This document shows positions 1,428 through 58,535 of a stretch of DNA of 64,000 nt, in pieces. The stretch is from Acholoe squamosa (Eukaryota > Annelida > Polychaeta > Phyllodocida > Polynoidae): NCBI GenBank assembly GCA_949317995.1, contig OX439038.1, positions 73,294,659 through 73,358,658 on the forward strand, written 5' to 3'. A program made the translations under genes and the position numbers. Below the pieces are notes generated by a model that worked only from the letters and a program-made list of their open reading frames with translations, was not told the DNA's origin and ran no database searches. Positions within the stretch are counted from its first letter, which is position 1; every line of letters starts with the position of its first letter.

Positions 1428-1528
1428 TCCCAACCTTCAGTAGTGTATGACCTCCTTATATTCCACCTGGCCGTGGACCCCATTGTTCCTACTGTAGGTT
1501 TATTTCCAAATTCTACAGTAGGTTGGGC

Positions 1529-9043: not shown

Positions 9044-9088
9044 GACTCCATGATGTCAGTTGCCACCATAGTGTACAATGCAATCTGG
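9044..9088 (+). CDS. 45-nt in-frame exon, copy 1 of a duplicated pair
   Basis: The acceptor GTGTTCTCTTTCAG and the donor GG/GTGAGTAAC are both strong. The 45 nt encode DSMMSVATIVYNAIW in phase 0, a hydrophobic helix-like segment. The second copy at 11,420 encodes DSMMSVAAIVYNAIL. Five of 45 bases differ but only two residues change in this frame, against four in the other open frame. The product is not recognised; a membrane segment or a HEAT/ARM-like helix would fit, but that is inference. Two such exons in tandem suggest mutually exclusive alternative splicing of a larger + strand gene. Confidence 0.5.
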
Positions 9089-10082
9089 GTGAGTAACTCA
9101 CTTATAGTATCAATAGTTAGTCTCTGTTGCTGCATTAGGCCCACCCTGTGGCAGGGACCACTGTCCTCAATCCCATATGTTTAATTTATTGGGTCAGCCT
9201 AATGAATGAATGTTAAATACACCCCATTGGGCAAAGAACATTTATTCAACGGTGATAACTTAATCAGAAAGCTAATAACATACACCTATCTTGGTGACTT
9301 AATGATCAATGTCAATCAGCTGGTTTTCAATGTTGATTTAAGGTTCTGGGCCTCAGTAGGATTGAATGCACTATACGGTCTCCCAAAGGATGCTAATCCC
9401 TATGTTGGTGTGAGGTGGGAGATGATCAATGCTTCCACATGGTAATATTGTTTGTCTCATTGTTATGAAGCCTTTTCCTTGCCCTTAACTGATATCAGGA
9501 CAGCCAGACTTTTCTGGCAAAACAGCTGCTGTCTAAATAAACTTAGGATGTCCCAGGGTCCCCTGTCCCTAGTTAGAGCCCCACCATGGAGCAGTGTCTT
9601 CAACCACTTAAAGGTGACTCAGAAAATGCACTTCTGGGGATTCTACTTACTAGCATTACATTGGTGCATAACACCAACCCTTTGGGACTAAGTAGAGATG
9701 GAAGGGTCGAAAAGGCACATATTATAATCATCGCACACTGCACTCCTTCTTAAGTGGTTCAAACCTGCCAAGGGGCAGATGGGAAGCTGGGGGATTAGGC
9801 AGAGAAAGCCACTTAGATGCAGGATGTACAGGTGAAAGAGTGTTGGCCTTGGGTGGGGAGGAAGGACTGGGTTGTGGAAGACCATTGGGAGAGATGTAAG
9901 TAGGATAAATGACAATGGTATACATGCTGTAGGTGCTAGAGGATCAGCCAAAATATCCAATAGGGGTTTCCTAGTCTAGGGACCACTGTTTGAGTGAGTG
10001 GGTACAGCTGGGCAGTCTCCCACTATTGAACAGTATAGCTTTAGGCCTGACCTATGTTGATTAAGTCTCCCTACCACTGATA

Positions 10083-10867: not shown

Positions 10868-13044
10868 TATCACAAACACCCACAACTGTTGAGAAACATG
10901 TCCCAGCCACATATCCCAGTCCTCAATACAGAACCGAATAACACAAGAAATATTCAACACCAGAACTGTATTTGGATGGTGTCCACCCCCACCCGTGGCA
11001 CTGAATTCCTGTTGACAATAAAAGCACAAAATACACTACCATGTCTGGCTTCAAAATAATCCATTTGTATTCTGAACAGTGTAGGAGGGGGGTCATTTTT
11101 CTCAATTTCTATAGGGATATGGGGATTGCTTTGATCACAAGTGCCACGAATTGAAATGGGGAAAAAGGAAAACATTAAAATAGGTGTAACAAAATATAAG
11201 CTAATGGTATAACCAATAGGACAAAATGGGTGTCTCCCATATCATAATGAATGAGGACTGATGCTATTTTAAGTGGCACTCACGCAGAATAGCAATAATT
11301 GTACACTGCAGTGAGCAATGGTGGGTCGGATTGACAGATGCACAAGTAGATGAGAAAAGCATGTGACAGATTTGAATATTTGATATGATATTCTGTTCTA
11401 CATGTGTGTTCTCTTTCAGGATTCCATGATGTCGGTTGCCGCTATAGTGTACAATGCAATCTTGGTGAGTAACTCACTTATAGTATCAATAGTCTCTGTT
11501 GCTGCATTACCTTTGCTCAGTCTCATCTGTTTATTAGGTCAGCATAATAAATGAATGCTAAATGCCCACCGTGGGGTAAAGAACATATCTTTAAGGACAA
11601 GGGCTCCAGGTGACCCAAAAATTAATTGACAAAGGATTTCCTTGTAACTTGAAATATTTGTTCTTTACATGATGTGTAATTGAAATGTGGAATAAAAAGT
11701 TGGTGTAGCAATGCTACTTTCTTCGGTAGCAGTCATCTTTTGTAGGATGCTTTAGCATTGAGTCCAATGGGCTGACACCTAGACATTTTGGATTTCGAGG
11801 AACTTTGGTGAATTATTCCCAAACTGGACAAAGAATTCTCTTCAAAAACTACAAATATGTCTATTGACATGTGTTAATCAAGATAGAAATGTAAAATCAT
11901 ATGGTTCCAACGCTACTTTTTGCACAAGATGAGTGTGTATGCACAAGGGTGGGAACCCTAATGCATAAGCCTATGGACCACAGCCAGAGGGGGTAGAGGG
12001 GGGTTTGTAGTGTTTTGGCAAAGTTTCTTCAAACTTGATGAATGCTCATTTATATTACTAGACATAGCCTTTGAACTAATAATGATAGAAACTTGCTTCA
12101 AAAACTCACAGATTCCTCTAACTGAGGAGAATGCAGTAGTTCCCGAAATGGCCAAAAGGCGCCTGCCGCTCTCGTCCTGACTTGCATGATCAATGTCGGT
12201 CAGCTGGTTTTCAATGTTGATTCAAGATTCTGTGCCCCAATCGGATTGAATGCACTATATGGTCCCAAAGGGGCTCTAACATCTATGTTGGTGTGAGGTG
12301 GGACTGATCAATATTTCCACCTTGGATTGCATTTGTCTTTGTGGCCGTTTCAACACAATGGATAGTAATTTGGCCTTTATCATTACCATTATGTGATATC
12401 AGGATAGCCAGACTTGTCCTTATCTTACTAAAGTGCCCTTTTCTAACAGAACAGCTGCTGTCGGACTCAACCCAGGATGTCCAAGGGTCCCCTGTCTGCA
12501 GATAGTGCCCCACCCTGGAACAGTGTAGTTAACCCCCTAAAGGCTGCAGAGTGTATCAGGCTTCATGTTACATTGTATTAATGAAGAAACGATGCACTTC
12601 TAGAGAGCCTACTCACCAGCAATTCATTGGTGCCCCACATAAACCTCATAGTGTCAGCATGGTGTATCAATGCATCCTGCAAACCATGTTTTGAATGGTT
12701 AAAACCTGCTATGGGGCAGATGGGGAACTTGGGGATTGGGCAGAGAAAGCCACTTAGCTGCAGGATGGACAAGTGAAGGAGTGGGGGCTTTGGTGGGGAG
12801 GAAGGATGTGGAAGGACCATTGGGGGAGAACCAAGTGGGATAAATGACAATGGTATACACACTGCAGGTGGTGGAGGATCAGACAAAATGTGCAATTAGA
12901 GTGGATGGGTAGCAAGGTGGTGAGAGTGAATCGGATGAGTCCCATCAATTTGTAGAAGCAGTTAAAAGGTTAAGTATTAAGTTATTATCCCTTTAAGGGC
13001 TATTTAGTGTTGTTATGTGGTCTACTCGCCAGGGGCTTACATTT
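10868..13044 (+). repeat. Tandem segmental duplication, copy 2
   Basis: Second copy of the block at 8,499-10,522, in direct orientation about 2.37 kb downstream. It carries its own 45-nt exon. It has about 580 bp of extra sequence around 11,590-12,175 that is absent from copy 1, possibly an insertion, although I see no clear terminal repeats there. Confidence 0.85.
11420..11464 (+). CDS. 45-nt in-frame exon, copy 2 of a duplicated pair
   Basis: Encodes DSMMSVAAIVYNAIL between the same acceptor tract (GTGTTCTCTTTCAG) and donor (GTGAGTAAC) as copy 1. The 23 bases before and 28 bases after the exon are identical in both copies, while the exon itself has five changes. Stops close the second frame in both copies. 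The third frame is open, but its predicted peptides diverge more. As 45 nt is a multiple of three, inclusion, skipping or exchange of either copy would keep the reading frame. Confidence 0.5.
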
Positions 13045-13269
13045 ATACAACATGCCAAGGGTTGACTTTACTCCTGTAAGGTAGGCAAGATGTACCAATG
13101 CAGCATTCGCAAGTGAACCGGGAAGTAGCACCAAGGACCGTACAGTGTGCTATACTCTTCCTGGCATCATGTCGTCACCCTAGTACAAGAAGGTTGTAAC
13201 TAATTTACAGTGTCAGTTACAACCTTTTTGCAGTAGGGCGAGGACGAAGTATTAAGTTATTAAAGTAGT

Positions 13270-16024: not shown

Positions 16025-16529
16025 GTTAAATGTAAAACCGAAAGGTAACCTGCATTCTGTTGATATGGAAATGGCAACTTTTATTATATCACTCAGACTA
16101 TAGTATTCAGATAGCCCTGTGGCCCCTAGTTTCCCTATAGTCCCCAGGATATCGTCAGACAAAGTACATATATAATTTATAGGCTGCAATAATATTGTGT
16201 TACAGGCACACATATGAGTCTGTATTACCCTGGACAAGATGGATGGCCACAGTTCTCTCCAATACATCACCCAACATATAGGAAATAACAAGACAAGCAA
16301 AACGAGCGCCCTGGTTTATTAACTTTGCAGGGATGGGGCAAGGGAATAAGTATCAGGTGGCAAATAGGATAACTATAGCCTGACAGACAAGAGAACGCTT
16401 ACAATTACTGCAGGCTACATAATGTTTATTATAGTGCCTGTAGTTATCCTGTACCTGCTATGCCTCTGCCATAACTCAATCCTATCTAGGGTCGTATATT
16501 GCTTAACTATCCTGTAAAGGTGCTTCAAT

Positions 16530-16680
16530 TTGCTACTTGCAAGTAACTCGCTAGGGCTACATTCATGCATCATGCCGCTATAACGATGCAGATGCATTCT
16601 CGAAGGGTCAGCACCAGGCACTTTAATGCAGCGCTGGTGGGAAGAAGCATCGCCAGTGCTGCAGTGGTGCATCAATGCCG
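16530..16680. repeat. Dispersed hairpin repeat, two units
   Basis: AACTCGCTAGGGCTACATTC with ATGCATCATGCCG, followed by a second unit AATGCAGCGCTGGTGG ... CATCGCCAGTGCTGCAGTGG. Both match the window-wide hairpin family. The minus open frame across it is a by-product of the repeat. Confidence 0.5.
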
Positions 16681-16980
16681 ACAATGGAACATGAACGTGG
16701 GGGCATCATGGAGTCCTTAAAGGTATACAACAGCCGAGCAGTCAAGTCAAGATAACAATGCTAGCTTAGAATGCTTATAACCGGGCTACATGCAAAAAAC
16801 ATAAACAGCTATTTGCAAATGGCCGTGATATTGGTATTATGCACGCGACCAACAGAGCTATTGAGCCACACTCTCCGAGCCCATCTAGAACATTAACTGC
16901 AGAATGGACTGGAATGAGTAGAAAACACGGCCCTTGTGTTGATATTGGAAACTCCATTTTAACACTGGTGCTTTTCCCAG

Positions 16981-17600: not shown

Positions 17601-18110
17601 ATCTATGAGCTGCTCCCCCGACAGGCGAGCTATTAGTGAGTGAAACATACCCGGCTCAACCCTCCGGGTCGGAGGCAATTTTTCGCCAATCGTCTCGTTT
17701 TAGCTTCATTTGTCTGTGTTGGCTTAGTCCTTTGAGGGCCGCATGATACCCCCAGGTTTATATTTCTTCCACGCTCAATGCTGCCTAGGTGGATAGACTG
17801 TTGGCATTGCATGAATGCTTATGCCGACCTTCAGATGTGTTTGGGCAGCTACTTTCGGTCCCTTAGACTATACGACACATGAATGTGCATGATGGGGAGA
17901 GACTCACCAGGGCTGCATTTTATGTTTTATAACAGTCATATGGGCATAGTGCTTAAAAGTGTCAGTTGCCACTTACAGAGCATAGTGGTGGATGGGAGGG
18001 GAGCAGCTCCCTATGAGGGGTCAAGGCGGTGAGCAGCTCCTGCCGCCGGGCATGGGGCTGTGTGAAGTGGGGGAGCAGTTCATGTGTACGGCCTTTGAGC
18101 TACTGACGCC
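17601..18110. other. GC-richer patch with GAGCWGCTC words
   Basis: Contains GAGCTGCTC at 17,607 and GAGCAGCTC at 18,001 and 18,031, with GGAGCAGTTC and TTGAGCTACT variants nearby. A hairpin-family copy (GACTCACCAGGGCTGCATTT) lies at about 17,905. No exon is supported. Confidence 0.4.
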
Positions 18111-21100
18111 GGCTGAACCCTGTATTGTACCGAGGTTGGATGAACTAATCTACCTGTGAGAGGCAGGTAGTGCACCTACTAACCTCATTCTCCTCAACTT
18201 TTAAAAATAACCAGCTCTAGGATTGGTCAGATCAAATACAAGTAAGCCTATTTGATATCGACGATGATATTTAGGATTAGCTGCAACGATGAAGTTGAAA
18301 AACGAATCAATCATGAAATATAGAAGTAATAAATAGCATGACTTTCATTCTACTTCTGGATACTCTGTTTTGTGTAGTTGGTGTTACAACCGATGTTAGG
18401 TTCAAATAACAATAGAGTTAAAAGGCAAAGACTTGCGGCACGGGGATGTGTGTCGAACCAGGGGGGATGACAGAGTAAAATGAGAGAAGGAAGCTCTTGG
18501 TTACTGTTTTGCATGCAACATCATAGGCTTGAAGGGTATATGGAATGCAATCACATACTATAGACCTTTTCATTTAGACACCCATAACTATACCAAATTA
18601 TATCATAATACACACGAGCTTGTAAGGTAAGATTCTTCTTGGGCTACCCAAGTCGATGTCTCCTATACTGGTGGCAGCACACCCATTACTCTGTCTCAGA
18701 TGAATCTCATTCTTTGCATTATTCGTATCTGCAGTTTATGATGACATCACCCAAATACATCGCAATAGATAAATGTTGATGCAGATTAGAACCCCATTAT
18801 ACGTGTATAACAAATTCTATAGATAATAGTGACATTTTGCAGCGTATGGGAGATAAGAGGTATTGTAGGTGCTGAGACAGGACGCTGCGTAACGTCACCA
18901 CGTGCCAGGACAAGTTAGACTGCTGCCAAACCTAACCAATGTGAGTGCTACAGTAGACTGAGGAGGTTGGAGACAACTAGTGTCAATGTACCACCTGCTC
19001 TATTGTCTCTCCCCTCCAGGAAGCATGGTTGCAGTCATAAATCGCACATAACCCATGCTCACTTCTCACAATTCTGGTAAAAAAATAGAGTGGATCACTC
19101 TATTACATTATTTCTTTATTCAACGACGTCACCCCGGTGATAAAATATTCAATAAAAACAATCAAATATTGTTAAGAAATTCAGGGATGACGTGTTAGAG
19201 GTCTCCCTTAAATTCAGCGAATTTCAGGTTTCAAAAGCACATGCATTCCTATATACAAGACCTATAAATCAGGGGGTCTTCTTAAGTGTGCATTACAGAG
19301 TGCCTTGTGCTAGGCCACTTTCACCCCTGCAACTCCAACCAGAGGAGGATTACAATGTACACTTTGCACAGCCCAAAGCACCAAGGCAACTTCTCTTCTC
19401 TATATTTACACTTTGTAAAATCGACCTTTTGTGCTATAGACGGAAAGAAGCCATTGTCTGAGCCTCTCATGTGGGACAGGAGGCTATATATTTATCATGC
19501 ATGGGCCACCTCCTTCAATCCTGACACTTGCAGTACTGGATGTGTAGTTTTGCTGAGCCCTCTATTTCTAACTCATGGTGTACCTACCCTACAAGGAGGG
19601 CCCCAACACGCTTATATTATTCATATCGACATTACTCAGTTTTATCCTTAAATTCAGATGTTTCATATGCCACCCAGAGCTATGATTACATATATATGAA
19701 AGCTTTAGTCCTGTGTCTTTTGATTTGTTCACGTTTTCTTTTTTGATTTGTCACTTCACTTCCATTGCTTCAATTTGATTGATGTGAACCATGGCTGTTT
19801 TATTGAACCTGGTAGATAAGTAAAGGAATCACTATGCGTCTTCCCTTGTGGACCGTCTGAGCTGGAGGAGTACAAAAGACCTCAAGGTCTGTGAAGTTTG
19901 ATGAAGGGCTGGAATGAGGCCTGGGATTTATCGGCCACCAAGGGTGGAGATATTGGCGTAACAAATCTTAGACGTCATTAAAACTAAGGCCGAACCCCCT
20001 TTATGTGTTGCATAATGTTTTAATGACCTGTATCCATTTATGGCCATAATACATGAATACGGCTATGGTAGACTCCTCTGGTGAGTCTACCTGCTTTTGA
20101 CTTGTATAAAACCTATAGAGTTAGTAAGAATTTAATCTTGGTGGATTACTCATTAGGGGTACACAGATGCATCATTATGACCGACCAAAGGCCAATTTCA
20201 TTAATTGAGGATCCAGTTCACAAAGGGTTAAGACTAAGGCCCCAGATTAAAAGGAGTCTGCAGGCTGTCCGGACCTCCCGATTTACGATTTTCTCTAACG
20301 TTATCACCCCACCGCAGCCGAACCGAGATTTGTGCAACCCTCTAACAATAGCCTGACTGGAATGTGACATTAATCCCCAACCAAACTCCATAAATATCCC
20401 TCTTTGTGTACCCAGACTGGTGGCACTTCACATTGCATGGGGTTGGCCTATGTAGACACTGCATGCAAAGTGTGCATATTATTATGATTACCATGAATTT
20501 GGCCAAAATAACTGTATCATTCTATGACATTATTTCATCAGTCAATTTATGGACCAGATTGATCAAGGATGGTAATTACTACTAACAAAGTTGTCCAACT
20601 CAGTTTCTTTTCTCCCAAATCTTTTGCCAGTTTCATGAGAACTGGCCGTGAGCTTCCCAAAGATGCCATGCCGCTGCAGCATATCATTGTTTGCTCTTTG
20701 ATTCTGCCTCTATAGTGAGAAGCTCCCTTTGGAACCTTGTCCTGCAGGATTATGTAACCCGTTATCACTGGACTGGTATCCTTAATTATAGCACAAAAAG
20801 CAGCTTGGCTGCTGCTAGAGGGGAGATACTGGATCCAAAAGGAGTCTGTTATCTCCCATAGACAGATACAGCTTAGAAAGCCTCCCAGTGCATTAAGCCC
20901 TGCTTTGAACTAGAAAGGAGGCAAAGTACCTGTACTGTCTAAGCACTGATTTGGAAGGCTTCTTTGCTCTACACCTCCTTTAGAGTTCTTTATCCTTCTA
21001 AATTAGGACAGTGTATGTTCTCACATGATTGGGGATGTTCTGAGGCAGCGTCAACAAGGCTTTGATGTAGCGATTTATCCTCCTCATCTTAGCACTTTGA

Positions 21101-22028
21101 GGACTGGATAATGTCTTAAATTTTAGGGTCATTTTGCTGCCATTATGCTCCTTTACTGATCAGCTTTAGCGCCAAACCTTTGGGAGTGTTTCAACTCACT
21201 TGCTTGCAGAAATGTAGCCCAGGCAAGTCACACGACGGGGTTGCTCTATTTCATCAAAGGGCTTGGATTAAATATATAGCTGTTGCAGAACAAATAAAGA
21301 ACCATTACAGTTCATATCCTATATATATTCAGTACAAACTATTTTAGAGGCTATCCTTGGCATTGCAACATCAAAGACCTCCTATTGGCTATGAGTGAAC
21401 TGGGGATCCGTTCTTATAAGTGTTCCAGAACCCCACTGGCACCCAGCAATTGGCCTTCCTCGGCTTTGCGGTCAAATATCAAGCTGAAGGTCACATTCCG
21501 CTTTGAAGTACAGAAGGATTCTTTTTAAGTGGAAGAGGAGTGACAGGAGAGGATTGGCTAAATTAAACCTTAGCTTGATATGGCACCTGTGTTTTATAGC
21601 TACTTAGCACCTTAGGGTGTGTATGGTCACTCCATCTGATGCATATTAGTATCCCCGTACTCGTCATGATACGTTAGTATGGTGCTTGGAATCAACCTTG
21701 ACGAACCCAGCCGACGACGACAAAACGTCATAATGTATACATTAAACCAACATGGATCCCTTATTTCAAAGTACTTCGTTTTTAAATCGACCATTTTAGC
21801 CATCCCTGCATGTAAGTGGATGCCTGTCAAAAAGGAAATTGTGGGGACAAATGAATTGATTATTATTGAGAGGGTTCTTTTTCTCCGCCCTTTTCCCCAA
21901 GTGAGAAATATACACAACTGGTTTATATCAAGGACTTGCCACTATTCCCCTTACATGCAATTTGTTACGTAGTAAAATAAAATACATGTTTGAGGTTAAA
22001 AACTAGTGTAACACTACTAGAAAATAAT
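18111..22028. other. Gene-poor stretch with weak open frames only
   Basis: About 3.9 kb without a firm call. A frame at 19,352-19,427 behind AACTCCAACCAG, a 97-codon frame at 21,679-21,972 and a minus frame at 20,547-20,768 are protein-like to the eye but lack paired strong splice sites. Half-copies of the dispersed hairpin occur near 20,045-20,190. Confidence 0.35.
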
Positions 22029-22552: not shown

Positions 22553-22829
22553 CGTATGTAGCTCCTCGTCTGTACGTTAAAAAGACCTGATAGCTTAACA
22601 TATCGAGGCCATAGCTCTAAGCCCAGCTGTTCTGAATCAATAGCAGCAATCTCTACCATTTAGATACTGGTGGGATATATACATGTTGGAGTCATTAGCC
22701 TGGTCTTGCCCTCAGTCTGTGCGTCTCTAAGGCCTGCCTCTGACAAGGGGAAGAAATAATGAAACAGCCCGCCATGGAACATTTCCCGTGTCCCTGATAC
22801 ACTCCCCAAGGGGTCAGAGAGATACACCG

Positions 22830-22880
22830 ATACAGTGCTTGGGTGAGACTCACCAGTACTGCATTGCTGCACCATGACAA
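22830..22880. repeat. Dispersed hairpin repeat copy
   Basis: GAGACTCACCAGTACTGCAT followed by TGCTGCACCATGACAACTAA matches the right arm of the family; the left arm is partly lost. Confidence 0.4.
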
Positions 22881-23414
22881 CTAAGTAACCTGACTTTTAA
22901 GGTATCCCTGGCCCTCAAAGCATTAAAAGAGAGGGCAGGATGGAGAACCTGATATTTCAGTCGCTGACTGTTTGTGTGGGTAGCAGAGCAGTTAAAAAAC
23001 GATGAGACGATGGATATATAGGATTTGATGGGTAAGCCCTCGATGGCACGTTGGCGTGGGAAAGCTATAACCAGTGTGGAATGGGAGGTAATATTTCTGT
23101 TTTTCAATATCAATTATATGTATGACAGATTCCTTCACACCTAATTCCTCACTTATCACCAAGTGCCTAATTGCCCATAACCATAGCAGTCATATGCCAG
23201 AGCTGTGACTTAGTTTGATTGACCGAGTCACCTCCTCATTTATATTAGTACTAGTAGGTTGAGAGGTAGGTGAAGGGAGGGGGTGAGTGGGGAATGATGC
23301 TGACTTGAGGTTGAGGGGGTAGGGATGACGGCTGATTTGCATTAGGAGAGACTAGAGACGTTTGAGGATTATAGCGGGACAACTCTCTCAGACCCATCTT
23401 CCTTCCTCCTCCAG

Positions 23415-23495
23415 TGGCTGCGGCAGTTAGTAATGAGCTTACTGGAGGAGGGTAGACATGGGGAGGGAAGCTTAACCATTGAAAAGACCGCATGA
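23415..23495 (+). CDS. Candidate exon, unknown protein
   Basis: The acceptor tract CTTCCTTCCTCCTCCAG ending at 23,414 is very strong. The first frame is open for 26 codons and reads WLRQLVMSLLEEGRHGEGSL before stopping at TGA. It could be a terminal exon, or could leave early at GG/GTAGAC. The other two frames stop sooner. There is no partner exon. The minus open frame here (23,251-23,493) is proline-rich and unsupported. Confidence 0.22.
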   Translation, partial: WLRQLVMSLLEEGRHGEGSLTIEKTA

Positions 23496-23532
23496 TATGA
23501 TGCCTCCAGGTTCATGTTTCTTGGTGCTCAAG

Positions 23533-23590
23533 GTGTGCCAATGCAGTGCCAGCGAGTCCCTGCACGAGCACTGCATTGGTCACCATGCCC
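23533..23590. repeat. Dispersed hairpin repeat copy
   Basis: CCAATGCAGTGCCAGCGAGT and ACGAGCACTGCATTGG form the two arms, with CACCATG following as in other copies. It contributes to the short + open frame at 23,479-23,715, which is therefore not called. Confidence 0.5.
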
Positions 23591-23715
23591 TCCAGACATT
23601 TGTTAGCCCTATAGGGGCGGTACAGGATCCTGGAGAGCAGTCCTTGAGAACAACCAGGGTACCTCTGGGTAAATCACCTAAAGGGTTAGAGATAGGCTTA
23701 TGGCAGAAGTCATAA

Positions 23716-28289: not shown

Positions 28290-30511
28290 CTCTTCCTGAT
28301 TTTTTTAGAAGATGTGCATTTCTTCATATTATGACATACAAGACATGTCTTGTCTTCAGAACTTTACAAATCAAATGCCTTCAATGTGTATCAACGATAT
28401 TTTTGAGTAGGAAAATATACAAGAGGGAGCCCTTCTCGATCTATAAATTATCAAGGCTATTATCATTCACTCCTTCACCAGGTATCATACACCAGACACC
28501 GTGTACAGAGAGGATATTTCACAAAAACCTATATAAAAATAACATTATTAAATTACCCTGCTGGGACATAAATGCACACTAGTCTATGTATGTTGCATCT
28601 ACACCACGCCCAGATTACCTGAATCCCCCTTGCACCCTACACAAAGGCAGCTGTGATTAGGTGTATACTGCAGCTCAGCAGGCTGGTTAATTGGCTAGGC
28701 GCTTCGACCTTTTAGGTCCTTTGAATTAGTTATTCCTCCTGTGCTGAGACATATGGGAGGTGCCATTCCCGTTGGTTACCGAGAATTGTGCGTTCCAGGA
28801 CGTAGCTCTGTAGTGCTATAGCGGTTCTATTTCAGGACTTGGCATGGTAGATTAACCATGAGTCGAGCTTATGCCATATCAGTTTCATACTTAAATGTTT
28901 AGATAAGTTTGCATATTAAGTCCTCTATTTCAAATTCCTTATCAACACTTATGTCAACATTATAATGAACTGCACTTCACAGAGGGCCCAGCATGCATGA
29001 ATGAGTAACTACACATTCTTATACCTGGCTCAAGGGTTGTAGCCTGCTCTAGGTGAATCTACCCCACTCTTTTTGTAAAATGACCTGTAATGTAGATATC
29101 CCTTCTGTCACTACTGAACCTTTCAAAAACTTTGCACTAAAAGTTCAGAAACCATATCAAATATGTAACTATAGGCAGTTACCCTTTAAAGCATGGGAAA
29201 ATGACTACTTTATCAGCAGGCAGGAAGCAGCAGATTGTCTGAGCTGCAGCAGAACATAACTTTGTAAAGGTTACCTGTGGTGTGGTGCATCCACAGCATT
29301 GGATGGTTGTCAGTTCCTCTTATGTCCATGTGAATGGGGCGGCCGTGCACCACGTAATCTTCCTGTAGTTCACCACTGGTACATGCTGGTACTGTTATCA
29401 CACAGTTTAACCCTTTGATATTAGACAAGTATTGTATCTATTCATTATGATTCCTTGTCATCATCCCCTGCTCCCCCATGGGGTTATGATGCATGAATGT
29501 ATACCTAGAATGTAGATTCATTCATGCATCAGGTCGACCTGATACAGCCCCAGATGGTGGGCTTTATTCAAACCATAGATGCACATCTTTATTTCTGATT
29601 GAACCGATCCTTGCCAGAGCCTAGGCAGTGAGCATAAAATATGAATTAATTGGGTATTGGAATGAGGAATTCCCCATGAACTGATCCTGCCCCAGTCTGA
29701 TCCATATACACTATAGTGTCCAGACTTGTACCACAGATAATTAGATGACTTCACTACTATAGTAAGGTAGCTATGGTGGGATGGTCCCTGGTCCACCCTG
29801 TGGTGGATACTTGGACCGGAGCCATCCCTGATAGCCGGTTATTGAATCACCAGTACCGGGGCAGGCCGCATGAGGAAATGGGCTCGTTTTCACACCAAGT
29901 CACAGACACAAAAACTGGGTATAATATGGGCTGGATGGAGCCTGCAGCCAATAGGTTCGGACGGCTAGCTGTGGGTGATGAGAGTGAGAGGGGATGAGGA
30001 TGGAGAGATGGATGGAGGGGGGAGGGTAGGATAACAATAATGGAAAAAGTAATTATAAAAGGCCTGCCTCCCAGCCCTGGTTCCCAACACCATTGCCAGC
30101 CTCTAATGGGCCCAGTGCACAGCGTGTCAAGTGGGGTGCTGCTGCTGGAGAGGGCTTCAGAGGTATTTTAGTGTGCCTCAGGCTGGCCCTACTCTCCACT
30201 TGCTCCTCGGCCGATAAGCATGATCAGGGGAGTCGGTCTCATTGACGGTGGGTGAGCTGCTCGTGGTGGGAGCAGTGTGGCATGCGGAGCAGCTTGGAGC
30301 TGATCCCATTGGACACGCCCACGGCATGCCCACCACCACCTGTCGCTGGTAAGCAACAACTCTCACAGGCCGGAATAGTATCTAATAGCCCTTCAAGTGG
30401 CACAAAGTGCCCTCACGCATCAGTTTCAGTCCAGCCAAGGTGAGTCCGCATGACAAACCTGGATTTACTCATTATGCAGAGTCTGCAGGGGTGAAGCACT
30501 CCCGGAGGGTG
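28290..30511. other. No firm gene; weak open frame and hairpin copies
   Basis: An open frame at 29,053-29,259 (starts VNLPHSFCKMTCNVDIPSVT) begins right after CTGCTCTAG, a modest acceptor, but has no donor. Hairpin-family sequence occurs at 29,485-29,530 (TGATGCATGAATG ... CATTCATGCATCA). A GC-richer part at 30,180-30,330 holds GAGCTGCTC at 30,254. Confidence 0.35.
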
Positions 30512-31481
30512 CACAGAGAAAAGAACACTGATCGCTTTGACGCATACTGCACAGGTCACAATTTGTCTCCCAGATGACATGTATGAAGGCATGTCAAATG
30601 AGGTTGACCCTCTCATATTTGGTTCGTCAACTCCATTTGACATGCGTAATGAAGACACGTCACATATTTCTGATCCATTCACCTGAGTGCTAGGTAATAC
30701 TGTGAGACAATTATGTAAGGGTCAAGAGCAGTCAATAACTATGTACCAATGGTTCAATCAAGGGAGGCCTATAATAGAAGGCAGGGGATATCATAGTCCC
30801 ACAGGCCTGCAACACTAAGGCACTTTTTTCTATCTACAGAACTCCTACTTGACTGAGGACCTCTATGCAGTCCATAAGACAACGGCATGGAGGTGCATGG
30901 CAATGCCATATGTCTCCCTGTACTGTAGATACTGAGATTATAGATTGTGGGTTAGAATACAGTCCTTTGGTATTTTCACTGACCCACACATAAGGTGTCT
31001 AACCACTCCAGTTGGAGTATTTAGGATGGTGGGTGTCTATTTTGATATTCAATAACAAATGCAGATTTAACAACGAAATAGAATTCACTACCATTCATTG
31101 ATAGTATTTACAGACCTTAGTGATCTATTCTTCATGAAAACAAAATGACACAGATACATCAAATGTCTCAAGTGTTGGTAGTACTTCTTGGTAGTGATTA
31201 GTCCTGGTACCAAAATGGTTGTTTGCTCCATCTAGTGGAATATCCTAGAACAATTATGTATGTCAAACCATCACATGTCAAGTGCCTTCGACATGGCCGT
31301 GACCCTAGTCAACTCACAGATGACATGGCATTTTAAGGCATGTCAAATCATATGAGGATTACTGTGTGCTACAGTTATCATGGTGACATATGTGCACATG
31401 TCCCAATGACGTGTGCTCTCTGTGTCAAATCAAGTTGACATGGGTATACATGTCACTTTGTCAGGAAGAATTTTCTCAGTG
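30512..31481. mobile_element. CACAG...CAGTG element, about 970 bp, GACATG sub-repeats
   Basis: The left end CACAGAGAAAAGAACACTG and the right end GAAGAATTTTCTCAGTG are imperfect inverted repeats. GACATG/CATGTC words are frequent inside, mostly in the outer thirds. Flanks are TG on both sides. Its ends resemble the element at 46,168. No transposase frame is visible. A good acceptor at 30,839 with a 31-codon frame (NSYLTEDLYAVHKTTAW at the start, TGA at 30,933) lies inside it, so that frame is treated as chance. Confidence 0.5.
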
Positions 31482-31483
31482 TG

Positions 31484-31547
31484 GGCATAATGCATGAATG
31501 CAGCCCTGGCGAGTCTACTCGCCAGGGCTGCATTCATGCATTATGCC
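31484..31547. repeat. Perfect 31-bp hairpin, best copy of the dispersed family
   Basis: Left arm GGCATAATGCATGAATGCAG, then CCCTGGCGAGT; a 2-nt loop (CT) at 31,515; then the exact reverse complement ending TTATGCC. It abuts the preceding element with two bases between. The perfect pairing suggests a recent or conserved copy. Confidence 0.9.
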
Positions 31548-31651
31548 AACCAAGGCCCCCTACTTGCATCACAACACTATTCGGCCATTAAGGGACTAGG
31601 CTTTCGACTCATCAGAGTCTGGTGTATTGAAAATAACCCCCTTCACTTCAG

Positions 31652-34832: not shown

Positions 34833-35194
34833 GTGAGTGAATGTACACAGAGATTTACAACACATGGCTAGAAAGCTGTCTGTTATTTTAACAGGTGGCA
34901 CTGTGTATGTACTAACGGACCTGTAGTCTAGCACTCTCTGTTGGCTGTGAGATAAGACTAGAGGGGAGGAAGTAGAGGCCTGCTGTACGCATCGCACCTT
35001 CCATTACTGGGTGTGAGAGTGGCTGGCCAGGCCTTTGTCACCTTACACTGCTGTGTGGGTGCCCTGTGGAGCAAACCCCACCCTCCTCCCTCAGTCTCCC
35101 ACAGACTCTAACAGACTCCCACAGCCTGCATCTATATAGGCCGAGTTAACCCTTTAAGGGCTGAATAATCCTCCCAGGTTAATGTAACTTGGTT

Positions 35195-35255
35195 GTCATT
35201 ATGCACCAACACTGGCGATTAGACATACCAGCACTGCATTAGTGCATCGTAAGAA
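35195..35255. repeat. Dispersed hairpin repeat copy
   Basis: CATTATGCACCAACACTGGCGA and CAGCACTGCATTAGTGCATCG pair as imperfect arms. TTAACCCTTTAAGGGC lies 45 nt upstream at 35,146, as seen near other copies. Confidence 0.55.
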
Positions 35256-35869
35256 CCTTTTGGGATGTATAAACTATTTAAAGTCAGCATGATGCATAAT
35301 TGCAGCACAAGAGACATAACTTAGGCATGAAGCACACATGTACCATGCGGCCCTTACAGGTGCAGGTGTATAGCACAGTCTACCAATGGTAGGTGTTACA
35401 GTGTTATGTAGTGTGTTTACACACATAAATATAACATAAGATTCCACTGTAACTACAATGTACCTACCAGTGTAACATGCTGTAATGTGTTTTGTATCGG
35501 TCATGAACAAATTGATTTTCTGTAATTACGCCTTATTCTGTGGTTTTCACTCTTTATTCAGTGGCTTTACACACTGAATGGAGTGTATAACATAGCTGGC
35601 ATCTATTAGCGTTTTGCTTTGTATTCTAATGTGTCCTCATATAGAAATGTCAAAGTATGAGTGACTATTTATTTTGATGATATCATAGACATCGATTCTT
35701 TTGGTCTTAAATGAGACAAGTCAGATCAGACAATAAAGACGAGACCTTTCTAAAAAGTACAAACCGACATTGATGATATAAGAGTTTGCTGAAAACAGTA
35801 AAGACTGGTACAGCCCCCTTTGGATGCTAAACTGAGTGCGTAGAGCTTGTATCAAGACTACAGAATAAC

Positions 35870-37059: not shown

Positions 37060-38110
37060 AACCCTTTAAAGGTAGACTCGGCAGGGATGTATTTATGCAT
37101 CATGTCGACTCTCTAGGATTGATAAAGCCCAAAGAAAAAATATATACATAGATTAGCGAGGGTAGCCTTCATGCATGATAGAGGCAAATAGACCGTATGA
37201 ATAGACATAATGCATTAAAAGTCCATGCGATCTGTCCAGGGTAAATAATAACGACCGACAGCGAATGCCACATAATTTATGTAGAAAGATGACACTGTGG
37301 CGTCCCTAGTCTGGGCACCGTTTTAGCTACCAAGATCCGTCTTCATTGGTGAGGGATGGGCCCTCCCCCTGGATCCATACGGAACTGGCGTGAGTGTGGG
37401 ATTAGGGCACAGTGTGCGGGCAACCAGCTCAGGCATCGATCTCGCGGCTTTCCCGGCGTAATGTCAACGCTGACAATGGTGAAAGGTTGGGGACCAGCGT
37501 TAGGGAGGTTATGGCTGGGATGGGGCCCCGTAATGATCCCTAATACAGTAATGGGAGTGACTTGGCATGGCCTTTGTGGGACCGTGGTCTCAGCAATGTG
37601 CACTGTTGAGTGATTTTCATTCTCCTCCTTTCAGCCCTACCTGGTTCACATTACATGCCCAGCCACTACAATAGGCCTCTTTTATACTGTTTGGACAGGC
37701 TATTGGCGCTGTTATGATGGTTATGTGGTTGTATGTGCAGCGCCATATCGCTGTATGTGGGTTTATCATACTAACTCTGCTTTGTGCAGAACACAGAAGG
37801 TGAATGGAAATTGCTGACCATTTGTTATGATCATTCTACATTGTCCATTCTCCCTTTCAAACGATGCAAATTTGATAAGCCTTATTCGCTGCATAGTACT
37901 TTAAATTGCAGTTTGCATCTTTATAAGCATCAAGCATGCAAACTGCTAGCATCGCGAGTAACTCGCCTGGCTTACATTCAGGTTCCTTGCTAACACTGCA
38001 GGATTGCCACGATGCACCAATGAAGTGCTGGAGAATAGACTTATTAGCACTGCATTGCTGCATCGTGATAGCAAATGTACATGAAACTGTTGTATAGCAT
38101 CATGCCGCCT
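37060..38110. other. Hairpin-family copies, no gene
   Basis: CCTAACCCTTTAAAGG at 37,062 is followed by GACTCGGCAGGGATG and ATGCATCATGTCGAC. At 37,935-38,060 two more units lie close together (CGCGAGTAACTCGCC; ATGCACCAATGAAGTGC ... GCACTGCATTGCTGCATCG). Opposed open frames at 37,343-37,613 are shadows of each other. Confidence 0.45.
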
Positions 38111-38184
38111 TTAAAGTATCACCTCAGATAGTAGGTATAGAGAGGAAGGGGAGATGGATATTGTTGGTCATTTTGTGTTATCAG

Positions 38185-38411: not shown

Positions 38412-39570
38412 CGACCTTATTAAGAAAATTTTGAAATGTGGAACAGGCCCCACTGACACCCATTCTCCAATATGACTGGAATGTAACTCCCAGTTGCTTG
38501 ATCACTGCCAAAATGGCTACAGCACTTCATATAGCCCATAAACTAGACAGAACAGGTCCATAGCCCCAAGGGCAGAATGTAGCCATCGATTTGTGTTTGA
38601 CATGGTAACGCGTCGTCAAGCATGATATTGTTTGCACATTAGTCTGAGTATGTCCTGTGGTAAAGTTGGCTCCAACCCCTCCCACCACACAGCCCTAACA
38701 GCTTGATAGCCTGATAGCCTGATTTACAATCCAAATTAATCATACTGTAAATATGCCTAGGCCAAAAATATGCTACCATGGGTTGGCCTTTGGTCAAGTG
38801 AATGGGTGCTAGGAGAGGGAGGAGTAGTTGTCCTATGTGTTATTTCCTGAAAGGCACTCACATTGATCATATCACAGGGATACAATGTATCGCATACTGA
38901 TGGGCATTAAGTGAGGGTTTGCTAACCAATGGTGGATACAGGGTTTTAAAAGGCCTAATTCACATTGTAAGTGTACAATTTCCACCCTAAAGCGGTGCAT
39001 ATTAAGATTCTTAGCACCCATGTAAAGGTTCAAAACAGGGGAGTCACAGGGGCTCCTGTCTTAACCCACCACTTATAAATGATATGACTGTGCTCATCAT
39101 TGAATGAAATGTTTTAAAGTTCAACTGGCATATCCCATCATAAGTTTGCTTCTGAGGCACAGATTATGCAGGTTGGCATTCCAATGTATCCTGTTGCCCT
39201 TACAGTTTCAGTTGATGTTAATATTTTAAGACAAGAATGCAAATTTGAAAAAAAAACATACAAGATTTTCTTACTGGAGTTTGGCAGACCAGACTAGCTT
39301 AGCTTCACAAGTGGATTGCTTGGGTGTCTATATGTGACGACGTCGGTGTCGGAGGCTGGTACTCCTGGTCAGTGTAAACCTGGCTAATACTCACCATCGG
39401 CCGCCAATGAACCCTTTTAGGATCACAGGATGCCACAAGGATCATTTCAGATGCAACATCAAACCATGGTGATTAACTTGCCACTGCTTCATTGGCTCCC
39501 TCTGCTGACCCTTCAGGGCTGAATCAGCCCTTTTTGGCTCCCTCTGCTGAATCAGCCCTGTAGGGTCCGT
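38409..39570. other. No supported feature
   Basis: Ordinary sequence. A short tandem TTGGCTCCCTCTGCTGA duplication occurs near 39,495-39,550. Confidence 0.4.
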
Positions 39571-39634
39571 ATCATGCATGAGTACAGCTCTGGGGAGTTA
39601 CTCGCCAGAGCTGCATTCATGCATTATGTCGACC
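39571..39634. repeat. Dispersed hairpin repeat copy
   Basis: TATCATGCATGAGTACAGCTCT pairs with AGAGCTGCATTCATGCATTA across GGGGAGTTACTCGCC. It is followed by TGTCGACCAA, the same right flank as several other copies. Confidence 0.65.
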
Positions 39635-39989
39635 AAGGGCAAAGGCCATTAGACCGATCCAGTCCCCAAAGTGTTAGCCAAGAACTCAGTGAGCCAATAC
39701 TGGGTGAGCAGAAGGCACCAGGAACCACAGCTAAATTGAGTTTTTGCTCCCGTGAGCGTCGATCGAATCTGACAGAAGCAAAGTGTAGCGGAAGTGTCAA
39801 GGTACCTGTGAACAGGGAGGGTGGGTTCACTGCCTATAGAGTAACACCCTCCACTCAAGGGTGCTGCCATATTGGTTCTCTCATAGATGACGCTAGTTCG
39901 TGCGATATTATACATTAGATTTCGTGGGGGTTTCCTTTTTGTCAGCCATCGAGTGACATATATGTAGAAAGGTTTGTGATTCATCACTA

Positions 39990-44065: not shown

Positions 44066-44225
44066 TACACCACGGTCGTTTAGTTCTATCTATATATTTG
44101 ACAATTATCTTCCCTAGTATGTACATTTATTCTGATTGAAAATACACAATCATATCAATGGTAATCATGCAGTATGACCACTTACCCCTTTTGGTCCATA
44201 AGGTGTCTCTAGGTCCGTGTTCCTT

Positions 44226-44360
44226 TATCCAACTGATGCGTGCACCAATGCAGCCCTAGCAGTCGGACCGCCTGCTAACCAATGCCGAATAGTACATCAT
44301 GTTGACCTTGCCGACTACTCACCAGGGCTGCATCCATGCATCATGATGACCAATGGGCAA
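44226..44360. repeat. Dispersed hairpin repeat, two half-units
   Basis: TGCACCAATGCAGCCCTAGC and, 70 nt on, CTACTCACCAGGGCTGCATC with ATGCATCATGATGACCAA. The right arm is well conserved. The short + frame here is a by-product. Confidence 0.5.
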
Positions 44361-46167
44361 AATCCACCACAGTACTTGGCGCCCCTTAAAAGATTAAGCA
44401 AGCAGACCCCCCGTTCTTATCTAGAGAGTTTACGTATTCCACCTGTCCCTCTGGCTAATTGCTGCCAATAACACAGATTGAGTCTACACCCATCTGTCTT
44501 CCAAGCGGCCGACATTGGAGGAAAGGGATAGAAAAAAGGAAGCCTGACCAATTGAATTTGCCAAGTGCACTGCATGCGACATTGTGTGCAAGATGGAGTC
44601 CTTAACATTTTTTGGCCTTCTGGAAGCAGTCCAGGAAAGGGTGTTGGATAATTCGTCTATCCATCAAAACCGTGTTGCTGTCACTTGGGCTGCCTCAGGC
44701 AGGACGGTGAAGCTTGGCCCAGGTTGGCCTCAATACACGGCCTAACCCTGGAGCACCTGCTACACACCCTGTACCCCATACCATACTACACCCCGTGACC
44801 TGCACATCCCTCCTGGTCAAGGTGCTGTACATATCATTACGCTAGCCCCAACCCAGTGAACCTTAAGGTTGGAAGGCGTATTCTAGAAGCTCCCAGTGCA
44901 TACCTTGCTATCTTTGAAGAGGAATTCCTTCCAGTCACTAGGACCAGTTACAAACGATTCGTAGCAACATCCTACATTGGACAAGGCTTACCTATATTAG
45001 ATTTGCAGTTTAACTTACTGTACAGATTCCCGGTCAGTTTTGTCAGAATCCAGATATAATACGTGTATACTGATAGTGCACATTACCTCGGATTCTGATT
45101 GATATTTCTTTCAATGGATGGTCATCCCACTATAGAGAGGTTACGACCACGACATGTGCGACAACATGTACATCAAGAACACCAGGGTGCAACCAGTCTA
45201 CACCATCACACTCATTAAGGATGCTGCTAACCAATCACCATAAAAAGGGTGTCTCGCACCTGTTCACAGCTGCCTGAGCTATTGCAGGATATCAGCTCCA
45301 TAGCAAATTCCCAAATAAATGCCACAACTTTTGTTCTAATCTCACATAAAAATAAACAACAACAAAAAACTTGAGCAGCATCTGTATCTAAGGATTAATT
45401 ACTCTGCCTTTTTACCCACCCACGTCTCCTCCTTAAGGGCTGACCTTCTGTCTGGTGCAGACAGGGGGCCTTAACCCTTTAAATGCAGCACTGGGGAATT
45501 AATGCCATGGCTGCATGTATCACGAAAAAACTGGTGGATTGAGCTCTCTCTTTTTTTTTTATAATTTTCCCGATCAAAGCGTTAATTTGCTCCTTTTGCA
45601 CTCCAAAGTATTCCGGGAATTAGGGGAGACACCTCCTCCTCTTGGATTTTAGTTCCCTCCTTTTCCAATACCTGAACCCGGCAAAAAAATGGCACCTCCA
45701 TGCTACCTCTTCGGAGTCAAGGTTGCTTACCGTTGAGGACATCAATACTCATCGGTCTGCAATGCCCTCTCCTCTTCCTCCAGCCCCTTGATGCCCTATA
45801 GACCTTACTACGTGGGCGTGCGTGCCTTCAATATTTTAACCATGAATTGCTTTTTTACAGCGACCACACTCTGAGGTCGTGTTAACTGGGTCTTCTGCCT
45901 GAGGGGGAATGTGCGGCCTACAGCATACATATCACATGGACAACGAGATCAGAAGCCTCTCATTTAGCTTGGTAGCTAGTGTGTTATCTAATCTATATCA
46001 AAATACCTTGAAATCATAAAAAGTTTCGAAGTTATCCTTCTATTTTTTGGATGATTTGGCTGTAGGTCTGGCTCTATTGATAACGATAATAAGTAAAGTG
46101 CCCCGGTTTTCCAGTCGTTTTCTCTTCATTCTGGAGCTATCTGGGGTTTTCATTTGGTACAAATCTT
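44361..46167. other. No firm gene
   Basis: A frame at 44,857-45,059 (NLKVGRRILEAPSAYLAIFE and on) follows ACCCAG but has a poor tract and only a GTCAGT donor, so it is left uncalled. TTAACCCTTTAAATGCAGC at 45,473 marks another hairpin-family copy. Confidence 0.35.
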
Positions 46168-46701: not shown

Positions 46702-48977
46702 AAATTTTAGCAAGAACTATGCATTAAAATGAAAACTTATATTTAGTATCTTCACTACCAATATTTCCCAAAGGACCACCACAGTGCCATATTGGACTTA
46801 ACAGAATGAGACAGTTTGAATGCAGAGGATTTAATATCTTATACCTAATATTTTGTGGCAAATGTGTTCAGTATGCATGAGTGTGGACTTGGAAGTTACC
46901 GCTGGAATGAAGGACTCTCCTCAAAAAGTGTCCAACCTGATTAAAGTCAAGATACAAACAGGCGTGGGTGGTCCTTTGCAACTTTTCATTGGAAAGATTT
47001 TGTTGGCAATAGTTATACTTGGATTTCAAAGGAGAGTTCATAGACACAAACTTACACCAATGTTTTACAAATTTTCATAAGCTGTATATTGCAGTGTCTT
47101 AATACATGCGCATTGATCAGTTCTATATTAACAGGGATTGAAGTCTTCAGGGATTTTCCTGACTTCAGGGAAGTTCAAACTCAAGGCCTACATATTCCTT
47201 TTATACACAAAACCTATATTTTAGGGATACTTACTGAGCACTCCAGGGGTTCTTTGCTCAATGACTTTCATCCCTGTTTTAATAATGAACTTCAACCAAA
47301 GACACTTTTGATATTCTCATAAAGAATAGTATTGGCGAGTTTTGTCCTCCATGGAGAGGTTAGATACTAATCCCCGGCCTGCTTGAGCCTTGGCTGGGAT
47401 TCCATAGACCAGGTCATGACAGAAGGTGAACATGCCACTATAGGCCGCCCCGTACACGGAGTAGGTCGGCAATGCCTCTCTTGCATGGTGCAGGTCCTTT
47501 AATCATGCCCCATACACTGCTCCATGGGTTCTTTGATGGCCGCATAATGCTTTGCTGCATCATTCCCATTGGTAGCCATGGTGCTTGTATGAACGCATCC
47601 CTGGTCAGGACAGGTTGGAAAGTCTTAGGTTTTCCCCTAATGCAAGTTCAGAAGACCGTATACATTGCTTTACAAAATCTACGGGATCCTGATTGAGCAT
47701 TCAGCAGATCTTTGTGTTCAGCCACCGCCCCCCTTCTTTGTAATGGCCTAGTGTTACGTGAATGAATCATGACTGATCTACGGGAGTTAATTATACACAT
47801 TCAGAAGGGCCAGTATGTTTCACCAATTTAGTTGCACAAGCAATGCACCATTGTACCATGATGACAAAAGAGCATGAACAATGGAGGCATCATGTAGTCA
47901 TTGAGGGTAAATAAAGCTCACAACATGGCCTTTCATTTCAGCCATTTGTGCACCATTGTGTTCCCTGACTTATGACCTCCCGGTGCTTTGCCGGTGGTCA
48001 ATGACCGGTGAGATGCTTGTTTGCTTGTCTTTTTATGGGTACAAGAGATGGAAAGAGGGTTTAAATGTTGACCAGACGCATGTAACTGCCTCCATAGAGT
48101 AGAGCAATGGCATATGTGCAAGAGGCAATGACCCCTAAATCCAGACAGTTCATCAGCTGATCAGAATGAGATGAATGAGACCTATTTTACGACAGCAATG
48201 AGGGATACCAGACTGAACAATCAGGTGAATCTCGTAAACCTTTTCACGTTGATATTGAAAAAAAAAATGTATCAAGAAGTCTGGAAGATCCCCACGAATG
48301 GTGACGTTATAAGGAGTACGTTTATATACTTATAAACGAAAGTCACCATTCTGCAAAGAATAATCTGCATTCGTTTCAAATCTGCTAACTTTCTCAGCTA
48401 CACCGAAGCAAAGATTGTTGCTTAAAAGAACCAGCCCTTCAATAAGCTGAGCATCATTTTAAATTAAGAATCATAGATAAGATACCACGTGTATACAGTC
48501 ATGTGTATGCCCCCTCAGATATTGGAAATCGCTGTAGGAAAAGATTGTAAAGATTGGCCTCTTATATTAGACTGTATTGGAGAATGTGGGTTAATAATCG
48601 ATACATTCTTACTCAATGTAGGGTAGTTGCCTCCAAGGTCCCCATGATTAATTGCAGAGGTAGGTGCAATAAGAATGCCTGTACATCCCTAATACAGACA
48701 TACTGTATGCAGCTCTGTATAGTATTATCAGGCCTCACAGGGCTTTGTTCAGGGAAACCATGGAGAAGGGTTCTTTGAATGGTGAATTCTGCATAGCCTT
48801 CCTTGGTAATTCATTTATTATACATGGCAAGGATTTACATGAAGGAATTATATTTCATAGAAAGTGTTTTATGTATTAATGTACCATTCTCACGACTGTG
48901 GGCAAGACCCATCGTGCACTAGGCCTATTTCAGCACACGGTGCCTTGCGTTAGGGAAAAGAAATACATAAATTATGT
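46702..48977. other. No firm gene; two weak open frames
   Basis: A frame at 46,868-47,080 behind GTGTTCAG contains a hydrophobic stretch (LQLFIGKILLAIVILGF), and another at 47,136-47,322 lies behind CTATATTAACAG. Both have poor pyrimidine tracts and no donors. Hairpin-family words occur at 47,475-47,610 and 47,830-47,870. Confidence 0.3.
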
Positions 48978-50254: not shown

Positions 50255-50882
50255 TGGGCTCTACAGCTAGTATGATCAACTGTGAGCCAGCAAGCTAAAA
50301 GGACCGTCCAAGGGGGACAAGTACCAATTCTGGCCACCAGGGGGACACCACTAAGGCTTAAAAAGGGGAAACTAGACCGAAAATTGTATTATACTAGTTT
50401 TTCATGAGGATTTCAACAGTCCTACAGGGAAATTTCCATTTTTGGTCCAAACCTTCCAAATTTGGAATGCAAATAGGATGTTTTTAGGGCATTTCAGGGC
50501 ATAAATCGGTGTATTTGTTGATATGTGTTGCCATGGAAACAAGATTTATACTCAAAATAGAGGAATAAAAAATAAAAAAAGTTACTCATAATGTTTAATG
50601 TATCATACCAATCTGCCGCCTTGATGCATGGATGATGCACTCGTAAAGGGTGTCCAGGATACACCAATGCAGTGCTGGCAAGTTGGCTTGCCATCACCCA
50701 CTGTTGCATCATGACAACTAAGTACCATTAGCATGAACCTGTTGGCACCATGCAGGGTTTGAAGTGTTATGGTCTGCCTGTATAGGCATGTTACGCTGTG
50801 TTGGGTGCCATGTCTGGAAACAGTAAATTCCTTCACAAAGGTGGCCTAATTTTCCCATTAAAGACATAATTATATAGGTTCA
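50255..50882. other. Hairpin-family copies, no gene
   Basis: At 50,620-50,725: TTGATGCATGGATGATGCAC, then CACCAATGCAGTGCTGGCAA and CACTGTTGCATCATGACAAC. The minus frames across it are repeat by-products. Confidence 0.45.
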
Positions 50883-55969: not shown

Positions 55970-56402
55970 GTAAAGAGGGCGCTGTGGATGAGGGGCAGGG
56001 ATATGAGGGTGGAGGGGGCAGTGTATGTTTTATCATCATGAGTCGGTGGGGTTGATGAGGCCGTCTCTGGGGGTATCTGGGGCAGCTGCTGGGCGCCGTG
56101 GAATGTCATTATTTCGCCATATGGATGCCACCCAACACAGGCCTCCCACACCATGGAGGAACCACCAACCCCCATCCCCCCACCTCCTCCATCCATATAC
56201 ACTTGTCCCTCAACTTAGCCCTTTAAGTATAAAAGCTGTGTTCATATCTAAATGCATCATGCCAGCTATACAGGACTGATACACTCTCCAAGAACCAGCA
56301 TGATGCATATAAATATAGCAGTGCTATTTGTCCCTTAACTGGCTATTCTTAACCCCTTCTGTCTCCACCTCCCTCCACTTACCCAATCCCAATCCGCTGC
56401 AG

Positions 56403-56522: not shown

Positions 56523-56837
56523 TCACATATGGGCTTCCTAATCAGCTAACGCCCTATGCTGTGTCTATAGTGCTTTGTCCCAACTGCCTCACAACATCCA
56601 CAGCAGCAACAGGGTCCACCTATTGGTAGGATAATAGGTGCTCCCAGGGGGTTGGCTCCTTAGGACCGCAAGATGTCTTCGGTTTTGTATTGTCTTCACC
56701 AGAGTTGCATTTATGCATCATACCTGTTAACAACACGAAGGGGATCTGAATCAACATCCCCAGATGATCGGTGCCCTCAAGATCATAATGCTCAAAAAAA
56801 GTTGATTACTGCAGGGCCCTATTTTCCCCATACCCTA

Positions 56838-58500: not shown

Positions 58501-58535
58501 CAGGCACTGGGTACCTGATATCCACCCAAACAATA

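Follow-up and report, generated by a model that had tools for sequence, protein, structure and literature searches.

A perfect hairpin in the genome of Acholoe squamosa as the probable inner palindrome of an abundant piggyBac-type MITE

Introduction

Transposons of the piggyBac type are recognized by the duplication of TTAA together with a terminal CC[C/T]T motif (PMC2872659), CCCTT being their most conserved 5' motif (PMC10813416). They include the CMITEs of corals, non-coding piggyBac-type MITEs with CCCTTT-type ends that insert at TTAA and also occur in tandem arrays (PMC2872659). The ends of piggyBac and piggyBat contain palindromes, 19 bp long in piggyBac, to which the transposase dimer binds through its paired C-terminal domains (PMC11707139). 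TTAA is likewise duplicated by Kolobok elements, which have 5'-RR...YY-3' termini (PMC9587614), and the Kolobok-type T2 MITEs of Xenopus, which form abundant and long-lived families, carry AGGRR adjoining TTAA (PMC6004289). A palindromic MITE of another kind is the human Made1, an 80-bp element related to Hsmar elements that gave rise to hsa-mir-548 (PMC1784062).

The hairpin described here lies in a 64,000-nucleotide stretch of the genome of the polychaete Acholoe squamosa, hereafter referred to as the window, and is part of a 260-base element. As in the coral CMITEs, this element is non-coding, has TTAA as its target and carries CCCTTT-type ends, and the tandem arrays of CMITEs have a counterpart in a small array-like cluster at 8925-9553 of L063, where several overlapping copies lie in a row and perhaps form a small tandem array. 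Unlike the CMITEs, the present element forms a nested palindrome over its entire length, with two ~70-base hairpins; the text of PMC2872659 contains none of the terms 'palindrom', 'hairpin' or 'secondary structure'. The T2 MITEs are comparable with respect to the TTAA target and to the abundance and long life of the family, while the terminal nucleotides are AGGRR there and CCCTTT here (PMC6004289). Palindromes within the ends are a feature in common with piggyBac and piggyBat (PMC11707139), where the transposase dimer binds them, whereas those reported here are far longer. Made1 is similar as a short MITE with one strong hairpin of comparable arm length (37 bp versus 31 bp in the present case), but is the hairpin itself (PMC1784062), whereas the present hairpin is one of two within a TTAA element.

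Results

The reported hairpin and the element containing it

The original prediction of a perfect hairpin with 31-bp arms at positions 31484-31547 of the window was borne out, the arms (31484-31514 and 31517-31547) forming an exact inverted repeat around a 2-base centre, and RNA folding of 31478-31555 gave -63.4 kcal/mol, corresponding to z = -13.8 relative to 200 dinucleotide-shuffled versions. The genome was queried with 151 bases around this hairpin. Among the 40 candidates scored out of 1456 found at first look, which together gave 83 matches, nearly all matches span only the hairpin (approximately positions 26-107 of the query) and a single one extends to 144 of the 151 positions, at 81%; the flank of the reported copy is therefore without a close relative among the scored candidates.

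For alignment, 621 bases were fetched around each of 39 genome sites, oriented and combined with the copy from the window (n = 40). Column identity amounts to 0.767 within 260 columns as opposed to 0.417 and 0.448 in the up to 100 columns outside each end. The element thus delimited comprises 260 bases, i.e., TTAA, ~252 bases and a second TTAA, in the form TTAA-CCCTTT...AAAGGG-TTAA. An exact TTAA is present at the left end in 12 of the 40 copies, at the right end in 18 and at both ends in seven, compared with a background in the window of 354 in 64,000 bases or ~0.6% per position; several of the copies without an exact TTAA are one base off, and the remainder are mutated or end short. The limits of the element in the alignment are sharp.

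The consensus opens with TTAA-CCCTTTAA, its left end reading TTAA-CCCTTTAAAGGGC and its right end CCCTTAAAGGG-TTAA, which on the other strand corresponds to CCCTTTAAGGG. The terminal CCCTTTAAAGGG is followed by a 24-base perfect palindrome, GCATGATGCATTAATGCATCATGC, by a first hairpin, termed B, a short spacer, a second hairpin, termed A, and a near mirror image of the outer parts, in which GCATGATGCATTAATGCATCATGC is slightly imperfect. The two halves of the element are therefore long inverted repeats, each with a hairpin of ~70 bases, and hairpin A is a diverged relative of hairpin B. With 46 complementary outer pairs, the consensus is almost entirely base-paired when folded (-213 kcal/mol), B and A branching off a single outer stem. 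A version of the element as one ~200-base palindrome, with boundaries placed by hand, was overturned by the genome copies. The idea that the hairpin is the core of a TTAA-inserting miniature element is supported by the constant ends and the TTAA flanks, and needs correction in that the element extends beyond the hairpin and contains a second inner palindrome.

Within the copy that holds the reported hairpin, 6 of 70 positions in hairpin B, 4 of 9 in hairpin A and 32 of 69 other aligned columns deviate from the consensus. This copy looks old, with an almost intact hairpin B and a decayed remainder.

The family in the window

Self-comparison revealed relatives of the hairpin throughout the window at ~59-86% identity. 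A half-arm profile seeded from a consensus read by hand gave 15 matches at E<0.01 and none in 20 dinucleotide-shuffled windows, nor did the iterated procedure yield anything when run separately on each of the 20 shuffles; with separate profiles, 24 matches were obtained for the inner arm and 16 for the outer arm at E<0.02, and none in shuffles. The full-element profile, for which 39 genome copies from outside the window were used and the window copy was excluded, identified 25 loci (46 matches) at E<1e-3 that make up 6.7% of the bases, i.e., one per 2.6 kb (Table 1); neither 20 shuffled windows nor 200 kb of reversed sequence contained any. The dispersed family is thus real, and 17 of the 18 further positions originally predicted for it were recovered at this threshold, while that at 45.5 kb reaches only E=0.016. 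Loci absent from the prediction include those at 7.0-7.3, 9.0-9.2, 9.6, 12.5-12.7, 13.0, 21.1, 30.4 and 47.8 kb.

Besides the copy at 39410-39675, which extends over almost the entire model, and five near full-length ones, the window contains mostly halves and fragments. When its copies are pooled, hairpin B departs from the consensus by 0.20, hairpin A by 0.32 and the remainder by 0.365, and it is because of this divergence that the exact motifs of the prediction recur mostly with mismatches. Exact TTAACCCTTTAAGG occurs at 10443, 28142 and 35146, the last of these being an element end.

Table 1. Hairpin and element copies in the window, with model positions referring to the 260-base element
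Feature	Positions	Strand	Basis
Hairpin B of the reported copy	31484..31547		perfect inverted repeat, fold
Degenerate copy with the reported hairpin, covering 2-153 of the 260 model positions	31449..31598	-	profile
Most complete copy (model positions 3-258); hairpin B ~39563-39638, hairpin A decayed	39410..39675	-	profile
Near full-length copy; hairpin A foldable, hairpin B with right arm retained	16513..16726	+	profile, fold
Near full-length copy; end is exact TTAACCCTTTAAGG at 35146	35146..35364	-	profile
Near full-length copy; hairpin A well paired	37881..38117	+	profile, fold
Near full-length copy with both ends (TTACCCC... and ...CCTTAAAAGATTAA), middle altered	44182..44398		profile
Near full-length copy; one exact end (AAAGGGTTAA at 20222)	19997..20230	-	profile
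Copy with TTAACCC end at 12529	12529..12700	-	profile
Diverged copy	17725..17980	-	profile
Half copy, hairpin A and right end	22795..22925	+	profile
Half copy, hairpin A and right end	23474..23622	-	profile
Half copy, hairpin A and right end	50598..50769	+	profile
Diverged copy, still folding (z -6.0)	1337..1454	+	profile, fold
Diverged copy, absent from the prediction	7017..7342	-	profile
Diverged fragment, absent from the prediction	9047..9212	-	profile
Fragment, hairpin A region	9625..9708		profile
Fragment	13020..13128	+	profile
Fragment with right end	21090..21244	-	profile
Fragment around hairpin B	29474..29569		profile
Fragment	30386..30510	-	profile
Fragment from right arm of hairpin B onward	37072..37242	+	profile
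Left-end fragment	47531..47605	+	profile
Right-half fragment, one locus with 47531..47605 among the 25	47763..47907	+	profile
Fragment, middle	56250..56311		profile
Fragment	56696..56771		profile
Fragment	62257..62354		profile

The window also contains other repeats. Three further long inverted repeats at 39982-40301, 58200-58661 and 46184-46396, with arms of 143, 130 and 70 nt that are 90-92% complementary, are perhaps other foldback elements; TTAACCC is absent from their detected arm ends. The sequence TTAACCCTTTGCCTACC at 42807 resembles a standard piggyBac-type end of another family, and 29407 and 28142 likewise start with TTAACCCTTT. Several paired blocks at 8.6-10.5 kb and 11.0-13.0 kb, 79-86% alike and spaced by ~2.4-2.9 kb, perhaps represent an old tandem or segmental duplication, and minisatellite arrays with units of 53 bp and 41 bp are located at 7454-8146 and 36294-36564, respectively.

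Distribution along the genome

The assembly comprises 1.48 Gb in 63 contigs, among which 15 large ones of 54-127 Mb were seen; the window is located at 73.3 Mb of a 91.3-Mb contig. Once matches on opposite strands of one palindrome, as well as two near neighbours, had been merged by hand, 40 distinct sites remained of the 83 matches. Of these 40 best-matching sites, among which is that in the window, 36 reside in the outer quarters of the contigs (20 expected, P ~1e-7), and eight pairs of sites lie within 1 Mb of each other as compared to 1.2 expected (simulated maximum 7). With the full-element profile, four loci were found in twenty 10-kb stretches (200 kb, mostly central), confined to two of the stretches; eight loci lie in eight 5-kb stretches from distal zones (40 kb), distributed over five of them. 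The density in the window, 25 loci in 64 kb, is ~20 times that of the mostly central stretches. Both sets of stretches were placed by hand, 15 of the 20 10-kb ones in the inner half and the distal ones on arms with known matches; because these are not random samples, the densities, and the range of 10^4-10^5 in which the copy number of the family may lie, are only indicative. CpG ratios in the 20 stretches are mosaic (0.22-0.70). The family is strongly regional and distal on contigs, a bias that may stem from insertion preference, from local hopping or from better retention.

Folding and covariation

Hairpin-forming RNA had been considered as an alternative nature of the hairpin, and no positive evidence emerged in its favor. 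Compared with the described families of Rfam at gathering score, the whole window gave one match only, to tRNA at 1682-1763, and none at the hairpin. The tRNA-like match (minus strand, 35.3 bits) was not called by ARAGORN and is perhaps the head of a tRNA-derived SINE.

When plus-strand folds were computed for the 11 window hairpins with both arms adjacent, seven surpassed their shuffles by >3.5 standard deviations and four did not surpass them (z -0.25, -1.09, -1.40 and -0.30), a result that is also expected of a decaying palindromic transposon. In the same 11 hairpins 76.3% of cells pair as opposed to 71.9% in shuffles (one of 500 shuffles as high), the covariation score was reached in 3 of 500 shuffles, and 11 pairs changed on both sides compare with 8.2 (matched by 42 of 500 shuffles), whereby the placement of some apices with the help of folding favours pairing. 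In the inner 34 columns the arms within an element are 72% alike versus 65% between elements, an excess that is still significant when the reported copy is left out (P 0.0009), and in the outer columns there is no such excess (P 0.83).

Among the 40 genome copies, complementary double changes numbered 18 versus 5.9 in hairpin B (maximum 12 in 1000 shuffles), 47 versus 29.7 in hairpin A (shuffle maximum 46) and an unexceptional 46 versus 37.8 in the outer repeats (shuffle maximum 57). Covariation was rejected as proof of RNA, as inherited subfamily differences in lineages of a palindromic transposon suffice to produce it.

Low divergence of hairpin B

Hairpin B deviates from the consensus at just 1-3 of 70 positions in 20 of the 40 copies, the remaining element of which is 17-38% diverged; across all 40 copies, each of which had been chosen by its hairpin B match, the remainder is 12-56% diverged. 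The binomial P for hairpin B against the remainder is <0.01 in 30 copies, the lowest value (1e-16) belonging to copy L022, whose flanks may not be homologous. The 20 copies with a long loop have median pairwise divergences of 0.086 for B and 0.444 for the remainder, where the closest pair differs by 0.295, and the corresponding values for the 20 with a short loop are 0.101, 0.331 and 0.172; an equal contrast between B and the remainder was obtained when the long-loop copies were realigned separately with a leave-one-out consensus. Two copies on different contigs, L017 and L038, exhibit ~72% identity over 474 bases, partly beyond the element, and only two base differences in B. Plain decay alone predicts neither that many strongly diverged copies have a little-changed hairpin B nor that the sites cluster distally.

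One explanation that goes beyond transposon origin is that hairpin B has been kept or renewed after insertion, be it by gene conversion prompted by the palindrome or by selection for a hairpin RNA, and would thus evolve in concert in dispersed, dead copies. The contrasts just described and the excess of complementary double changes between the arms of B point in this direction. So does a comparison with copies from the window, which were found by profile and not by hairpin B alone: the 18 of 26 window matches left after omission of the reported copy and of those with <20 aligned B columns have a B divergence of 0.213 without spread beyond sampling (chi2 16.3, 17 df), and without spread chance would need 318,000 copies for 22 of them to lie at <=3/70 and 8.3 million for nine at <=1/70 (the model used these numbers of copies, while a recount gave 20 and eight).

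However, the 40 copies were all picked for their hairpin B, and when the same mean of 0.213 is combined with a spread of 0.05, 9,300 copies give 22 at <=3/70 and 63,000 give nine at <=1/70, numbers to be compared with the family size of 10^4-10^5 suggested by the rough densities. The binomial values were for this reason discarded as decisive proof of conservation after insertion, since they can arise when the closest matches are picked out of a family of very large size with copies of differing age; such picking could explain the pristine B only if copies differ in age more than the 18 window copies show. The contrast is, furthermore, weak (P>0.01) in 10 of the 40 copies, several of which are among the best fits to the consensus, hairpin A, though also palindromic, is not conserved in the same copies (~0.23), and other window copies have a B divergence of ~0.12-0.35. 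That B is little diverged even in the window may reflect constraint in active lineages or a consensus that suits B best for having been derived from B-selected copies. On balance, we consider it rather unlikely that gene conversion or use as hairpin RNA has kept hairpin B near-identical in dead copies.

Transposon class

The reading that we favor, with a probability of roughly 85% and judging from sequence features, takes the reported hairpin as hairpin B of a piggyBac-type MITE that is old, abundant and non-autonomous and inserts at TTAA. The consensus has terminal inverted repeats starting with CC[C/T]T and the TTAA target at both ends. With 260 bases, compared with a transposase of ~500 aa (PMC10813416), the near-palindromic element has no room for a transposase gene, and a Pfam search with 10 of the 11 window ORFs of at least 110 aa gave no match.

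A MITE of the Kolobok type, similar to Xenopus T2, would share the TTAA target sites, but the RR...YY termini of Kolobok (PMC9587614) and the AGGRR of T2 (PMC6004289) disagree with an element that starts with CCCTTT, ends with AAAGGG and hence has CC...GG termini, and render this assignment very improbable. As the ends fit piggyBac and not Kolobok, the family is filed as a piggyBac-type MITE on the basis of ends and target site, not of an enzyme. A viral origin was dismissed, the 22-base arm pattern having no exact match in viral contigs. Chance resemblance among TGCAT-rich palindromic words without any true family, to which the merely 60-70% likeness of many window copies might be ascribed, is refuted to near certainty by the 25 loci found with a profile from outside the window against none in the shuffled and reversed controls, and by the sharp edges of the aligned copies, the absence of which had been named beforehand as the outcome that would speak against the family.

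The original statement that no known transposon family has exactly this form applies justly to the precise layout, of which no description was found in the literature searched, but the kind of element, that of piggyBac-type MITEs, is a familiar one. The family may have an entry in Repbase or Dfam. As far as can be told, it adds an unusually palindromic member to an established group of mobile elements.

Discussion

Based on the assignment to piggyBac-type MITEs, we infer that a piggyBac transposase encoded elsewhere would have bound the CCCTTT ends, and perhaps also the palindromes just inside them, and that the element would have been cut out and pasted into TTAA with duplication of the site, i.e., moved by cut-and-paste with the transposase acting in trans. 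After insertion the copies would have decayed, with that at 31484-31547 keeping hairpin B nearly intact. That the inner palindromes aided binding of the transposase is a further step, and one for which the palindromes bound in piggyBac and piggyBat set a precedent, as functional palindromes inside transposon ends.

If the excess conservation of hairpin B is true, it would represent a palindrome evolving in concert throughout the genome within an otherwise decaying element. The concentration in distal regions is of relevance to the spread or persistence of MITEs along chromosomes. What had appeared as an odd hairpin is now a defined family of mobile elements with known ends that can be masked, dated and counted, and if the nested palindromes served the transposase, its copies would offer a natural series of end variants for studying the use of palindromes by piggyBac-type enzymes.
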